Origin: Pseudomonas fulva NBRC 16637 = DSM 17717
GTDB taxonomy: Bacteria; Pseudomonadota; Gammaproteobacteria; Pseudomonadales; Pseudomonadaceae
Assembly (NCBI RefSeq): GCF_000730565.1
Contig: NZ_BBIQ01000017.1
Location: forward strand, 1 to 64,000
Direction of reading: 5' to 3'
DNA length: 64,000 bases
The notes below the pieces were generated by a model. That model made no database searches. It was given only the letters and a program-made list of their open reading frames with translations, and was not told the origin of the DNA. How positions within the stretch are numbered: the stretch's first letter is position 1; each line of letters starts with the position of its first letter. Position numbers and translations under genes: made by a program. Shown here piece by piece: positions 29,785 through 33,753 of the stretch.

Positions 29785-29860
29785 GCCGGTGTAGCTCAGT
29801 CGGTAGAGCAGCGCACTCGTAACGCGAAGGTCGCAGGTTCGATTCCTGTCTCCGGCACCA
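29785..29860 (+). tRNA. tRNA-Thr (anticodon CGT)
   Basis: 76 bases with acceptor GCCGGTG/TCTCCGGC region, D arm AGCTCAGTCGGTAGAGC, anticodon loop CTCGTAA, T arm GGTTCGATTCC and encoded CCA. A broken tyrosine-type integrase lies just downstream, so this tRNA was probably used as an integration site. Confidence 0.97.
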
Positions 29861-29904
29861 CATCCAGCTCCACTGCATTCCGCTGAATGCTTTGGAAGCC
29901 CTCT

Positions 29905-29928
29905 AAACCGGCCTTCTGGCCGGTTTTT
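29905..29928 (+). terminator. terminator of tRNA-Thr
   Basis: AAACCGGCC-TTCT-GGCCGGTTTTT: a 9-base stem with T run, 45 bases after the tRNA. Confidence 0.9.
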
Positions 29929-30024
29929 CTTTTCCACGACCCTCCGTCGGGAACCAACAAAATCCCCAATAAACGGGGGTGTTTTTGGGGTACAGCGTCT
30001 TTCCTGAATGGAGAACGTACCCCT

Positions 30025-30312
30025 ATGCCACGCCTAGCCATTCCGCTCAGCGACCTAAAATGCTGTACGGCCAAACCGCGTGATCGTGCATACAAACTGT
30101 TCGACGACGGGCGTATCTACCTATAAGTCGCGCCCAGTGGCTTGAAGACTTGGCGGCTGCGGTATTTCAAACCCAGCGGCAAGGAGGGCACGCTGATCGC
30201 TGCAAGATGCCAGCCCCGCGAAAACTTGGCGCTCACGTCCAACAACCGTTCTTCTGTTCCGCACCAGTATCACTTGGCCTATAGCGATGTCTCGCTAGCT
30301 GGCATCAATAGG
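30025..30312 (+). pseudogene. remnant of a P4-type integrase
   Basis: The frame from ATG 30025 reads MPRLAIPLSDLKCCTAKP, then RDRAYKLFDDGRIYL and a TAA stop at 30124-30126. It continues in the same frame with VAPSGLKTWRLRYFKPSGKEGTL and, further on, YSDVSLAGINR. The intact family (N-terminal DUF4102 arm-binding domain) reads roughly ..AKPKDKPYKLFDGGGLYLEV.PSGSKLWRLKYR... and later YPDVSLAEAR. So this is the arm-binding end of an integrase, with a nonsense codon and about 25 foreign residues before the last motif. The catalytic domain is missing. Its place next to tRNA-Thr fits an old, decayed island. Confidence 0.75.
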
Positions 30313-30335
30313 AGCCCGCCTCATGCGGGTTTTTC
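30313..30335 (+). terminator. small intrinsic terminator
   Basis: GCCCGC-CTCAT-GCGGG followed by TTTTT. It lies between the integrase remnant and the PAAR toxin gene. Confidence 0.65.
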
Positions 30336-30484
30336 TGTTGTGCGTAGCTCCCAAACCGCCAAGTCGTGCCCTAGTCCAAAATCCGCGTTACTCGTAGGAA
30401 TCGTCTCGTTAGCTGCTTGAGGCCTCATTTGCCCCTTCTTAGCTGTTAGGTTCTCTCGATCCTACAATTCGCAAGGGACTCTAA

Positions 30485-30598
30485 ATGCGCGTCAGTCTGG
30501 ATGGGCTTGGCCAAGCAGTAGATGGTGATATGACCACCACAGGTGCAATTGCATCGCCACCGGGGAAGATTACCTCGACAAGGGGCGAATGGTCCTGA
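30485..30598 (+). pseudogene. 5' end of the PAAR toxin gene, cut off by a frameshift
   Basis: ATG 30485, with AAGGGA seven bases upstream, starts MRVSLDGLGQAVDGDMTTTGA, the usual opening of a PAAR-repeat protein. The frame then drifts to a stop at 30596-30598 after 37 codons. The missing second half of the motif (CIATGEDYLDKGRMVLRLGD) is found in the -1 frame from about 30550. Restoring one T in the AATTG at 30547-30551 would join the two frames into one normal PAAR domain. This is either a real one-base deletion or a sequence error. Confidence 0.7.
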
Positions 30599-31884
30599 GG
30601 CTGGGGGATCCCACCACACCTTGTCCACTGTGCGGGCTGGAAGGAAAGGTCGTCGAAGGGGTTTGGCACTTCATCTCGGATGGCCAGCCAGTCGCGATGG
30701 ATGGGGCGTTAGTTGATTGCGGTTGCCCAGAGGGTAGCAACCGGGTGGTGGCGCCTTTAGGGGAGATGCCCCCGCCGCGGCTACCGGTTGCCGTACGCAT
30801 TAGCGTCGAGCCCGCTGGCCCTGGGAGCTCTAGCGCTTTAGCAGGGGCCTCGCCCGCCAGGGTTGGCGGATTGCCTGGGCAAATGCAGCCGGGATTCTAT
30901 GTGGTGCCCCGGAGCATGTCGTTCCCGCAGATTCTGTTGGAGCTGGCTAGACATGATCCGACCTTGCCCATTTCGTACCTTCAACGCCTGAACCCGACTT
31001 TCGAGCAGGGGTTCAAGGCAGGGGAAATCTTCGTCATCGGCGATCCGGATAACGGTTATGCCTGCACCCAGGAGGAGGGCCAACTCATGGCAGCCGCTGA
31101 GCACGCGCGACGTTCCTTGGCTGTACTCGATTTTGCCGAGTCAGATTTCATGATGGAGTATCAGGCTGAAATTGCCGGACTGCTTAGTGACGCCAGTCTC
31201 GCAATGGGTGTGGGTAAGGACATGATGGATCACGGCCTTCGGCAGCTTCGCAGCACACTTGGCAATATCGAGCGTTTGCATCAGCAAGAATTTCTGCGCC
31301 ATGGCCATCTGAATAGCCCATCGTTCTTCGCCGAGCGACGACTGTTATTGGAGCAGCTAAATGGTCAGCTGAAGGCGACTTTTCTTAATAAACATCTGAA
31401 TCTTGGGGCTTACGAGAAGCTGAAGAAAAGCTTGAATATTTCCACCAGGAGCCTTGTGCATCATTGGTCGAAAGCCGGTGGGCCAGGGCATATTCCTGGA
31501 TACGCCACATACTTGGACAAAGTGGCAAAACTTAGTAAGTACCTCAGGTATGGTGGGTATGTCGGAATTGGCTTAGGTGGGACATCGTCCTATCTGAAAG
31601 TCCAGGAGGCCTGCCGTGCAGGGGAAACAAAGGCCTGCAAAAAAATTCGTTTGTCTGAGGCAGGAGCTTTCACTGGGGGGCTAGTGGGAGGCACCGCGGG
31701 TGGCAAGATTGCTGGGATCACTGCGCTCGCTGTATGTGGGGTGTTCTCTGCGGGTACCGCGGGTCTCGGAGCTCCAGTGTGTGGCATTGCGCTGGTCGGG
31801 GGAGGGTCTTTAGCTGGGAGCATCGCCGGTGCGCAGGGCGGTGAGCAAGTGGGCGAGCTGATCTACGAATCACATTATGACTGA
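30589..31884 (+). CDS. PAAR-domain toxin, C-terminal 431 residues (probable type VI secretion effector)
   Basis: The open frame starts inside the PAAR domain (VLRLGDPTTPCPLCG ... VDCGCPEGSNRVVAPLGE, residues 2-61). A proline-rich linker follows, then a LysM-like stretch (YVVPRSMSFPQILLELA ... LQRLNP, about residues 103-140) and a helical middle. A long glycine-zipper region ends it (GGLVGGTAGGKIAG ... GGGSLAGSIAGAQGG, about residues 360-422). PAAR proteins cap the VgrG spike and carry toxic tails. Glycine-zipper tails usually insert into membranes, so a pore-forming toxin is likely; that is inference. Codon use is more AT-rich than the flanking core genes. As read, the protein lacks the first 21 or so PAAR residues because of the upstream frameshift. 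Confidence 0.65.
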   Translation: MVLRLGDPTTPCPLCGLEGKVVEGVWHFISDGQPVAMDGALVDCGCPEGSNRVVAPLGEMPPPRLPVAVRISVEPAGPGSSSALAGASPARVGGLPGQMQPGFYVVPRSMSFPQILLELARHDPTLPISYLQRLNPTFEQGFKAGEIFVIGDPDNGYACTQEEGQLMAAAEHARRSLAVLDFAESDFMMEYQAEIAGLLSDASLAMGVGKDMMDHGLRQLRSTLGNIERLHQQEFLRHGHLNSPSFFAERRLLLEQLNGQLKATFLNKHLNLGAYEKLKKSLNISTRSLVHHWSKAGGPGHIPGYATYLDKVAKLSKYLRYGGYVGIGLGGTSSYLKVQEACRAGETKACKKIRLSEAGAFTGGLVGGTAGGKIAGITALAVCGVFSAGTAGLGAPVCGIALVGGGSLAGSIAGAQGGEQVGELIYESHYD

Positions 31885-32266
31885 GTTCGAGAATTGGCCC
31901 GTGTGGCTGAAGTGGATAATGCTGGCATGTCCGTTCGTGATCTCGTCGGCCGGTTGTGCAATCAGTGCATTCATCGCGGGTACAAGACATTTCACTGTTG
32001 CAACCTCGGCTATCCAAAGTAATCCCGGCCTGGAACAGATGAAACTGTTTTTGGGCACGCGGCGCTTTCGCGCTCGGTGGCTGCTGATAACATTTCTTTG
32101 TGGAATACTCATTTGGCCTGGCATACACATGCGCAGGGGGCATCTGGACATTGAAGAATTCGAAAACTTTCCTGCAAAAATTAAGTTGGCTCTACAAATA
32201 TCCTCGTGGCTGACGGCCTTCGGCTTCGCTTGGATGTGGGTGACCTACGCATTCATCAAGGCATGA
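31877..32266 (+). CDS. membrane protein, probable immunity to the PAAR toxin
   Basis: A 129-residue protein with three hydrophobic segments at about residues 11-33 (LKWIMLACPFVISSAGCAISAF), 68-86 (WLLITFLCGILIWPGI) and 108-127. The gene overlaps the toxin stop by 8 bases. No family was recognised. The tight overlap, the small size and the membrane location fit an immunity protein against a membrane-inserting toxin, which is inference from context. It shares the AT-rich codon use of the toxin gene. Confidence 0.6.
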   Translation: MTEFENWPVWLKWIMLACPFVISSAGCAISAFIAGTRHFTVATSAIQSNPGLEQMKLFLGTRRFRARWLLITFLCGILIWPGIHMRRGHLDIEEFENFPAKIKLALQISSWLTAFGFAWMWVTYAFIKA

Positions 32267-32343: not shown

Positions 32344-32865
32344 TCACTTAAAAGTCCAATCTCGCCCCAACACCACCTCACAAAACGCCCCCTCAAGCGT
32401 CGCATTATGATGCGCAACAATCTGCTCAGCCCGCATCTGCGCTGTATCCGTACAACTGTGTCCATCCGCAACCAGCACCGCTTCGAACCCGAGATCCCGA
32501 GCAGCCCTGCAGGTACTGTCCACACAGTACTGAGTCTTCATACCGCCAATCACCACCCCAGTCACCCCGAGTGCCCGCAAATCCTCAGCGAGCGCCGTCC
32601 GTGTAAACGCATTGGGCCGGTGCTTCTCGAACACCACCTCGCCACCCGCAAGCCTCAGTTCCGGCGCAAGTTGCGTCAACACACTGTCAGGCGCAATCGG
32701 CGAGCCAGCGGGGCCTACATGACGGGCGAGAAAGATCGGCGCGCCAGCATTGCGCGCCTTGTCCATCAGTTCGTTGACGGTTGCCAACAATGCTTCGCAA
32801 CGCCAGGGCTTTTCCTGGCCATGCACCAACCCAACTTGAACATCCAGAATCAATAGCGCGTACAT
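32344..32865 (-). CDS. isochorismatase-family cysteine hydrolase
   Basis: A 173-residue protein with the catalytic triad of the isochorismatase superfamily: D8 in LLILDVQVGLV, K81 in VVFEKHRPNAF and C114 in GMKTQYCVDSTCRAARDLGF. The family includes nicotinamidases and other amide or vinyl-ether hydrolases; the substrate here is not evident. The start at 32865 is preceded by AAGGAA at good spacing. An upstream in-frame ATG at 32883 is possible but has no ribosome site. The gene is preceded by a leader peptide and terminator (32906-33030). Confidence 0.85.
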   Translation of the reverse strand: MYALLILDVQVGLVHGQEKPWRCEALLATVNELMDKARNAGAPIFLARHVGPAGSPIAPDSVLTQLAPELRLAGGEVVFEKHRPNAFTRTALAEDLRALGVTGVVIGGMKTQYCVDSTCRAARDLGFEAVLVADGHSCTDTAQMRAEQIVAHHNATLEGAFCEVVLGRDWTFK

Positions 32866-32905
32866 TCGTGCGTTTCCTTGCATGAGGCCATTGAGGCAAG
32901 GGCAC

Positions 32906-32938
32906 AAAAAAGGCCCTGTCCATCGCTGGCGGGCCTTT
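32906..32938 (-). terminator. attenuator-type terminator upstream of the isochorismatase-family gene
   Basis: On the minus strand AAAGGCCC, a 14-base loop, GGGCCTTT, then more T. It lies 20 bases after the stop of the leader peptide and 40 bases before the hydrolase ATG, so it would cut off transcription before the gene unless disrupted. The sequence CCGCC just after the 5' arm can instead pair with GGCGG inside the leader peptide coding region, giving a competing antiterminator. Confidence 0.75.
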
Positions 32939-32958
32939 GAAGTCTGTTCGCTATCTGC

Positions 32959-33030
32959 TCACGACACCTCGCACGCTCCGCCATGGGCGGTCGTGGTGGT
33001 GGTTGCGGTGGTCGAATGGTAGATGATCAT
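32959..33030 (-). CDS. threonine-rich leader peptide
   Basis: A 23-codon open frame, ATG 33030 to TGA 32959-32961. It encodes a peptide beginning MIIYHS, followed by a block with seven threonines out of eight residues (TTATTTTT) and AHGG. The run of ACC/ACG codons, the hairpin CCGCC-CAT-GGCGG immediately after it, and the terminator downstream form the layout of an amino-acid attenuator, like thrL in E. coli. No clear ribosome site is seen; the predicted transcription start falls near the ATG, so it may be leaderless. Confidence 0.65.
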   Translation of the reverse strand: MIIYHSTTATTTTTAHGGACEVS

Positions 33031-33036
33031 TGCCCG

Positions 33037-33065
33037 ACACTAGCAACACGGCGCTGCGCTGACAA
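33037..33065 (-). promoter_or_regulatory. promoter of the leader peptide and isochorismatase-family gene
   Basis: On the minus strand TTGTCA (33065-33060), exactly 17 bases, TAGTGT (33042-33037). The expected start point is within a few bases of the leader ATG at 33030. Confidence 0.5.
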
Positions 33066-33121: not shown

Positions 33122-33523
33122 TTATCGGATAACCCAGTCTTCGCTCCGCAGTCCAGGTACTCGCTCAAACTCACGACGGTTATTAGTGACAATAATCAGA
33201 CCTTGTGAGCGAGCGTGACCAGCGATCATTTGATCGAAAGGGCCAATAGGCGTGCCCAAACGTGCCAATTCAGCACGGAGCTGTTCAGTGTGGGCGGCAG
33301 CGTTTCTATCATATGTAAGAACTTCCAAGCGCGCTGCCAGGTCTTCAACCGCTGCTAGATTACGCTCGGGATTCGAGGATTTCTCAGCACCATAAATCAA
33401 CTCCAAAGTGACGGTGCTTATGCACATCTAGTCATGATGCCGCTTGAAGGCATCGCGTACTTAGATAGGACGGTTTTTGATAGTGAAAATACATATAGTT
33501 GTGTCGAGCATGAATTTGAGCAT
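33122..33523 (-). pseudogene. vapC: vapC toxin gene with two in-frame stop codons
   Basis: The frame from ATG 33523 reads MLKFMLDTTICIFTIKNRPI, a TAA, VRDAFKRHHD, a TAG, then MCISTVTLELIYGAEKSSNPERNLAAVEDL and on to VPGLRSEDWVIR. Apart from the two stops and one missing codon (family: TLMELIYG), it is a normal 130-residue PIN-domain ribonuclease that stays in one frame throughout. The part after the second stop (33122-33427, 101 residues) could be translated alone but lacks the first catalytic aspartate (D7). The toxin should be inactive. Confidence 0.85.
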
Positions 33524-33753
33524 CAAAAACGCTCGCGCTCTTGATCAGCCGGCTGATCACGTTCTGTCATGAAATCTTCTGTAGGGGCTAAGTCGTCGAA
33601 CCAGCTATCCCACGCTTCCCCGGCAGGTGTGATGATGCGTGTGCGCCCAATCGCGACGACGTCAACGCGCTTGACGTCTTCCGAAAATGCTGCAGCTTTG
33701 GGCAGTCTTATAGCTTGGCTACGATTACTCAAAAAAACGGCACCATGTTCCAT
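33523..33753 (-). CDS. vapB: VapB antitoxin
   Basis: A 76-residue antitoxin with an AbrB-type N-terminal DNA-binding part (VFLSNRSQAIRLPKAAAFSEDVKRVDVVAIGRTRIITPAGEAWDSWFD) and an acidic C-terminus that would bind VapC. The start at 33753 has GGAGGT close upstream. The TGA stop overlaps the vapC ATG (TGATG), the normal coupled arrangement. The gene is intact although its toxin partner is broken. Confidence 0.9.
   Translation of the reverse strand: MEHGAVFLSNRSQAIRLPKAAAFSEDVKRVDVVAIGRTRIITPAGEAWDSWFDDLAPTEDFMTERDQPADQERERF

Follow-up and report, generated by a model that had tools for sequence, protein, structure and literature searches.

The window, i.e., the whole 64,000-nucleotide stretch of Pseudomonas fulva DNA that was analysed, carries a gene for a 173-residue hydrolase of the isochorismatase family (PF00857; 32344-32865, ATG at 32865), preceded by a compact regulatory element; both lie on the minus strand, as do all features of the element described below. 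The promoter consists of the -35 box TTGTCA (33060-33065; TTGACA, TTGTCA or TTGCCA in relatives) and, after a 17-nt spacer, the -10 box TAGTGT (33037-33042), which is separated by 6 nt from the leader ATG. The frame opened by this ATG comprises 23 codons, MIIYHSTTATTTTTAHGGACEVS plus a stop (32959-33030), with seven Thr codons located within codons 7-14 (33012-32989). The pause hairpin 1:2, CCGCC-CAT-GGCGG (32978-32990), is built from arm 1 (CCGCC, 32990-32986) and arm 2 (GGCGG, 32982-32978); in the locus comparison, its outer stem is not alike across clades. In the predicted nascent fold, arm 2 pairs instead with a second CCGCC (arm 3, 32932-32928), giving the antiterminator 2:3 (32928-32982). 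Arm 3 is placed within the 5' half of an intrinsic terminator 3:4 (32906-32938), in which AAAGGCCC (32938-32931) and GGGCCTTT (32916-32909) enclose a GNRA-type cap, CCA-GCGA-TGG, and are followed by a T run to 32906. Between the terminator and the gene, the inverted repeat CCTTGC (32901-32896) and GCAAGG (32881-32876), spanning 32876-32901 and called as a pair in the window locus (L001), would mask the Shine-Dalgarno (SD) sequence.

The promoter (33065-33037), the frame of 23 codons with Thr at seven of eight successive positions, the CCGCC-CAT-GGCGG hairpin and the alternative GGCGG/CCGCC pairing had all been named in the original prediction, and each is present. The proposed extension of the latter pairing by CCAT/ATGG is not conserved: the three loop bases vary freely in relatives (by eye), and the ATGG of the terminator is explained by its being part of the CCA-GNRA-TGG cap. 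The short distance between the -10 box and the leader ATG, as well as the SD-masking inverted repeat, had been overlooked. A covariance model of the hairpin and terminator (R1, 15 sequences) matches 32904-33003 with 90.4 bits, the window sequence being one of the 15 training rows. Taken alone, the folding of the window element is unremarkable (z -1.15); it is the conservation of the DNA within the genus, together with the retention of a Thr-rich leader at homologous loci, that indicates that the element is not due to chance.

Two further gene groups flank the locus. At 33122-33747 (minus strand) a VapBC toxin-antitoxin pair is found whose VapC looks broken: its frame does not cover model positions 1-32, and an ATG frame upstream of it, which resembles the beginning of VapC, ends after about 20 codons (by eye). 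Beside the hydrolase, at 29785-32266, a tRNA gene is accompanied by a gene for a PAAR-domain protein and by a small gene of convergent orientation that matches no family; the region has the appearance of a variable island encoding a secreted effector together with its partner.

The assignment of the hydrolase to PF00857 is clear from both the Pfam score (E 8.1e-33, 114.4 bits, cut-off 27) and the residues Asp8, Lys81 and Cys114, which are invariant in a 10-sequence alignment and correspond to the catalytic triad of isochorismatase-like cysteine hydrolases. The AlphaFold model derived from ten orthologues has a mean pLDDT of 92.6, and its closest folds are 3oqp and 4h17 (query TM 0.90), isochorismatase-like proteins with no assigned function. 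No NCBIfam equivalog was reached, the best score being 54.5 bits vs a cut-off of 195. An assignment of the substrate from homologues was therefore set aside, because the nearest PDB members are unassigned and the NCBIfam ones score far below the cut-off; to our knowledge, no substrate is known for this subfamily. An anti-phage role was likewise rejected, as 0 families matched among the PADLOC models. A conserved operon partner was sought by clustering ORFs with 90 aa or more in the neighbourhood of 80 named loci, the 80 best among 253 relatives, and was not found: no neighbour occurs in more than 12 loci, and the 12-locus cluster is an antisense reading frame. The hydrolase itself is recovered by this procedure as one cluster of 64/80 loci, so that about a fifth is missed. 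The gene is patchy across genomes and at times multi-copy, the protein being found in 155 of 398 genomes at E 1e-30 or better.

The DNA of the element has a match in 59 of 199 genus genomes. When the DNA and protein searches are pooled, 152 distinct Pseudomonas loci are obtained, 148 of which have at least four Thr in eight codons upstream of the gene and 143 at least five. The four loci without a Thr-rich leader are L032, which is a gene remnant, L038, L122 and L128; at L032 (G038 C20) the attenuator and the hydrolase gene have both decayed. Of eight further low-scoring genus genomes, seven show at least five Thr in eight codons; the eighth has the most distant homologue, with 41% identity. 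The same holds for 78 of the 80 named loci, the two without the leader being L231, which is the same place as L122, and L239. The loss of Thr codons with retention of the gene, which the original prediction had singled out as decisive, is thus rare (4/152, one of them the remnant, 1/8 and 2/80); the gene is retained with a lost or damaged leader at L038, L122, L128 and L239. Wider searches of 398 phylum and 148 family genomes provided 54 loci for analysis (L254-L307, up to 30 per search). All 13 loci with a profile score of at least 220 bits carry at least five Thr in eight codons, whereas the 41 loci with a score of 161 bits or less carry at most three; the Thr-rich leader therefore accompanies 13/13 orthologues vs 0/41 more distant family members. 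Among the named loci the group reaches Delftia tsuruhatensis, and in a plasmid collection of 63 records it is found in Burkholderia, Paraburkholderia and Pantoea/Duffyella. The leader is present at five of the six plasmid-collection loci read and absent from the Aeromonas record. These locus sets overlap in species, and their counts are not additive.

Throughout the relatives, the Thr run is retained while the N-termini of the leaders drift (by eye). Covariation had been proposed as a test of the alternative stem 2:3, and none is observed, since the arms are nearly invariant. Comparison of the loci shows, at the level of sequence, that the leader, the hairpins, the terminator, their spacing and the pairing with the gene are conserved. 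This pattern indicates that the association of the leader with the hydrolase subfamily is old and nearly one-to-one, rather than the result of recruitment in a single genome; consequently, the choice initially posed between a hydrolase acting in threonine/2-oxobutanoate metabolism and a recruited element is not the best split. The Pantoea-type loci keep a hairpin and an SD-facing repeat and show no clear T run. Termination is doubtful there because no U tract is obvious, and their architecture suggests translation-level control.

The best -35/-10 pair lies close to the leader, ending 6-9 nt 5' of its ATG at 123 of 147 loci vs 3.9% of shuffled upstream sequences; TTGACA-17-CATGAT-6-ATG is the form typical of one clade. 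Because no SD sequence fits into the 6-9 nt between the -10 box and the ATG, the leader mRNA is probably leaderless, the transcription start being placed by the promoter spacing.

The predicted switch was further characterized by folding. Since indels spoiled the folding of the MAFFT alignments, which gave a poor whole-alignment consensus, the stems were analysed singly. Nascent RNAs ending before the 3' arm of the terminator were folded for 142 of the 147 loci with arm 1 either masked or unmasked. Arm 3 pairs with arm 2 with a mean probability of 0.85 under masking of arm 1 and of 0.24 without it; pairing 2:3 exceeds 0.5 in 139/142 and 34/142 loci, respectively, while other windows of the spacer pair with arm 3 with a mean probability of 0.00. 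In full-length folds, masking of arm 1 lowers the terminator from 0.51 to 0.18 in clade 1, and only from 1.00 to 0.91 in clade 2. As the terminator of clade 2 is still dominant under masking, the switch there must be kinetic, with the antiterminator forming first; winning by early formation is usual for the antiterminators of attenuators. Mutually exclusive antiterminator and terminator structures are therefore predicted, less clearly for the window sequence, whose thermodynamic case is weaker than that of its relatives because 2:3 is already present in the unmasked nascent fold and the terminator persists in the full-length fold with arm 1 masked.

In most loci the hydrolase SD sequence is masked by a further hairpin, with pairings that are unrelated between the two clades. 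In clade 1, CCTTGYGT pairs with ACGCAAGG; in clade 2, GTTTCTCC pairs with GGAGAAAC, or TTGCTCC with GGAGCAA. A first criterion detects the stem in 53 of 76 clade 2 loci (score at least 15) vs 3.9% of shuffles, and in 0/70 clade 1 loci. A second criterion, in which the arm is allowed to begin 5' of the SD, detects it in 52 of 70 clade 1 loci (score at least 16) vs 8.3% of shuffles, and in only 6/76 clade 2 loci vs 5.4% of shuffles. Both criteria were set after looking at the sequences, and more weight is therefore given to the permutation test, the shuffle control and the existence of two different pairings. The core CTCC..GGAG is present in 55 of 75 clade 2 loci, and the arms of the mask covary: across the 14 distinct combinations, 36 of the 42 flanking pairs can form; permuted arms give a mean of 28.3 pairs and a maximum of 35 in 5000 permutations, a statistic that ignores the kinship of these related sequences.

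The mask also appears to respond to the state of the switch. For clade 1, the model gives an SD accessibility of 0.28 that increases to 0.68 once arm 2 holds arm 3, with a gain above 0.15 in 56 of 66 loci and a decrease in none; the corresponding values for clade 2 are 0.33 and 0.59, with such a gain in 53 of 73 loci and a decrease in one. Shuffling of the freed terminator segment leaves the accessibility at only 0.33 (clade 1) and 0.38 (clade 2); the real segment exceeds the shuffled ones by more than 0.1 in 57/66 and 54/73 loci, and falls behind them in one and two loci, respectively. The gain is less marked in full-length folds with arm 1 masked, which still allow the terminator to form; it exceeds 0.2 in 31/66 clade 1 loci (6 fall) and 15/74 clade 2 loci. 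From these models we infer that SD unmasking is linked to antitermination.

The same architecture is not confined to the hydrolase. Searching 199 genus genomes with R1 gives 112 matches of at least 46 bits, the next best scoring 36.2 bits; ten of these weaker matches (36.2 bits and below; L404-L413) were examined and look like ordinary terminators. Hydrolase loci account for 75/112. The other 37 comprise 28 before a gene for a GNAT that aligns almost end to end, two before GNAT fragments (L400, L401), two before an MFS gene (G079), one at an insertion sequence (L033 region) and four without that GNAT (L378, L380, L398, L399), although a different GNAT-like frame lies downstream of L399 (by eye). 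None of these 37 traced matches precedes a threonine-synthesis gene. The GNAT loci with a Met-rich attenuator number 28 (L338-L344, L052, L379, L381-L397, L402, L403); their leaders, e.g., MTYTRRMNMMCSSMTASGGP, belong to a second conserved attenuator with a presumably leaderless ORF and combine the same hairpin and GNRA-capped terminator with the same short ATG spacing (by eye). A leader is found at 13 of 28 GNAT homologues (27/99 genomes), 12 by script and L444 by eye, so that the pairing of the Met leader with GNAT is looser than that of the Thr leader with the hydrolase. In the L400 leader, MTTQSRMHIIRSSIFAFGGA, the conserved MM...M positions are Ile codons, and the GNAT match downstream is partial.

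The Met-type leaders bear directly on whether the Thr-rich ORF is a sensor at all. The ACC run might be nothing but the 5' arm of an RNA structure, with a plain terminator and an SD mask ensuring constitutive low expression: the last Thr codons do overlap arm 1, and the last Met codon of the Met-type leaders also pairs, ATG with CAT (by eye). This explanation is nevertheless most unlikely, given that Thr 5' of the arm is kept by ACC, ACT, ACA and ACG alike (by eye), the length of the Thr run changes in whole codons (L002) and the Met family retains Met outside the stem.

The MFS gene of G079 is preceded by a nine-Thr leader in two copies (L345, G079 C62, and L062, G079 C104). The start of the transporter, MDDFDHRALRNKLDL, is identical in 10 of 15 positions (by eye) to a threonyl-tRNA synthetase (ThrRS) start, MDDLDHRNLGVKLKL, as if a ThrRS-type leader and its first codons had been fused to the transporter gene. 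The best NCBIfam matches of this MFS protein are the efflux proteins MdtH and YdeE; because they lie far below the cut-off, drug export is a guess. A C4-antisense target RNA (RF03163) is located nearby within L345 and suggests a phage-satellite setting.

Extension of the R1 search to 249 phylum genomes reveals Thr leaders before ThrRS-like genes in three non-Pseudomonas proteobacteria (L415, 64.6 bits; L416, 60.4 bits; L417, 51.1 bits). The encoded proteins comprise 412, 410 and 405 aa, respectively. Those of L415 and L417 contain tRNA-synt_2b and HGTP_anticodon domains only (the two scanned), and the alignment of the L417 protein with the full-length ThrRS 1qf6 covers residues 243-611 of the latter. 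Each of the three genomes contains one other ThrRS, encoded in an open reading frame 662-684 codons long, which makes the attenuated gene a shortened second copy. At L424 (39.1 bits) and L425 (37.3 bits) a Thr/Lys leader (MTISTKATTKTKAPSGGSGAVRA in L424) precedes a gene that reads as aspartate-semialdehyde dehydrogenase (Asd; by eye); with scores close to those reached by chance in the genus search, the two loci have their main support in the leader itself. Five loci of one genus with 7-9 Mb genomes (L418, L419, L420, L422, L423; 41.0-49.4 bits) show leaders like MIKSSRTFNRNHMTRFGWAVGGVAR and a similar terminator before small DUF1127-like proteins, while L421 (35.8 bits) is likely a chance site. 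The R1 training alignment contained L062 and L052, whose matches therefore depend on the model; the other GNAT, ThrRS and Asd matches are independent of it.

A short ORF rich in one regulatory codon thus lies directly upstream of the hydrolase gene, and the attenuator itself is well supported by comparison. Most likely, the attenuator is ribosome-mediated and senses the charging state of tRNA-Thr; the hydrolase that it would induce may be protective. RNA polymerase would start at the leader ATG, or within a base or two of it, and the ribosome would translate the leader without a Shine-Dalgarno sequence. If tRNA-Thr is charged, the ribosome would clear the Thr run, so that 1:2 pairs and transcription ends at the terminator that then forms; if the tRNA is uncharged, the ribosome would stall and cover arm 1, leaving GGCGG free to take CCGCC and allowing read-through. 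In most relatives, holding of arm 3 by arm 2 would also loosen the SD-masking stem, because the freed terminator bases can, in the model, pair around it. Termination and translation would then switch jointly, with a single solitary cysteine hydrolase as the output. In the account originally given of "textbook attenuation" on Thr codons, the ribosome-mediated mechanism with Thr as the regulatory codon is retained, while "textbook" is not appropriate for an element that is probably leaderless and has a second, SD-masking layer.

The signal could, in principle, differ from tRNA-Thr charging: the leader peptide might sense a ribosome-targeting drug or a nascent-chain signal, as the erm or bmrCD leaders do, and resistance-gene leaders can work in this way (PMC4191407). 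This is very unlikely here, as what is conserved is a stretch of a single amino acid behind N-termini that vary freely, and the identity of this residue, Thr or Met, is the main difference between relatives of the same chassis.

If tRNA-Thr charging is indeed sensed, the benefit of the hydrolase has to be considered. A rather unlikely answer is threonine supply, in which the enzyme either provides a threonine precursor, for instance through ring opening of the homoserine lactone derived from acyl-homoserine lactones, or recovers amide nitrogen during amino-acid starvation. Attenuators usually serve the pathway of their own codon, and the Asd-like gene, an enzyme of that pathway, stands behind a Thr/Lys leader of similar chassis at L424/L425. 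Moreover, HqiA, an enzyme of the cysteine-hydrolase group, degrades acyl-homoserine lactones (PMC5430456); however, HqiA has 237 aa vs 173 aa for the hydrolase, and the two are likened by description, not by sequence. The missing operon partner and the patchy, sometimes multi-copy occurrence of the gene also argue against supply, as does the fact that MFS, GNAT and second ThrRS genes are driven by the same chassis. Because this chassis is found on a transporter, a GNAT and a second ThrRS, tRNA-charging stress fits better than threonine synthesis.

Protection under charging stress could mean that the hydrolase acts when threonyl-tRNA synthesis is blocked, perhaps by hydrolysing a ThrRS inhibitor, a suggestion made with less confidence than the switch itself. 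A ThrRS inhibitor leads to the loss of charged tRNA-Thr. Obafluorin, a beta-lactone from P. fluorescens, inhibits ThrRS and hydrolyses in a pH-dependent manner, and the strain that makes it owes its protection to a second ThrRS, ObaO (PMC10619133). A hydrolase opening an obafluorin-type beta-lactone ring would fit, and a threonine-supply role would still be compatible with the data. A more comprehensive reading, conceivable and offered tentatively, is that of a modular regulon of leaderless attenuators in Pseudomonas and other proteobacteria, in which the loss of charging of a single tRNA induces protection against synthetase inhibitors or amino-acid mimics. The hydrolase behind the Thr leader would be an inducible inactivator of a ThrRS inhibitor, e.g., obafluorin (drug hydrolysis); the Thr leader with MFS would provide export, the Thr leader with truncated ThrRS target bypass and the Met leader with GNAT drug acetylation, and every module would link termination with SD unmasking.

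Amino-acid attenuators accordingly extend beyond biosynthetic operons, with one RNA chassis in which both the codon and the gene have been swapped. A widespread hydrolase gains a concrete regulatory signal and, with it, a short list of candidate substrates. A leaderless ORF ending in A-x-G-G followed by a GNRA-capped terminator offers a handle for charging-stress genes in Gram-negative bacteria, and possibly a route to new resistance functions against synthetase inhibitors.

In the open-access literature, judged by title and the start of the abstract, no paper was found on a Thr leader before an isochorismatase-family gene, and neither "isochorismatase" nor "threonine" occurs in the accessible main text of the attenuator survey PMC2965389. 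No Rfam family reaches its gathering cut-off for the window element or for five relatives, although the element would operate in the manner of the enterobacterial thr leader. The best match is Thr_leader (RF00506), over the full length, with 18.5 bits and E 0.27; the element is not a member of this family, since the score is below the cut-off of 55 and a hydrolase rather than a threonine biosynthesis gene lies downstream. The enterobacterial Thr_leader comprises a Thr-rich leader ORF, a pause hairpin and a U-tailed terminator, and the thrL leader has an Ile codon block. All three parts of the former recur here; unlike it, the present element controls a lone hydrolase instead of thrABC, has no Ile codon block, is probably leaderless and carries an extra SD mask. 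The Streptomyces trpRS1 attenuator uses Trp codons; there, as in bmrCD of B. subtilis and as predicted here, a protective gene is switched on by a ribosome that stalls within a leader ORF. The bmrCD attenuator differs in that it responds to antibiotic pressure, not to one amino acid (PMC4191407). The trpL attenuator RNA of Sinorhizobium meliloti, whose 5' end is the leader ORF ATG, resembles the predicted leaderless RNA, whereas it has Trp codons and a biosynthetic gene and no SD mask is described for it in the available text of PMC7298713. Finally, although no attenuator is mentioned for ObaO in the part of PMC10619133 at hand, and the L415-L417 genes code for only 405-412 aa, the leaders of these three loci precede a second ThrRS in truncated form, and ObaO is likewise a second ThrRS.
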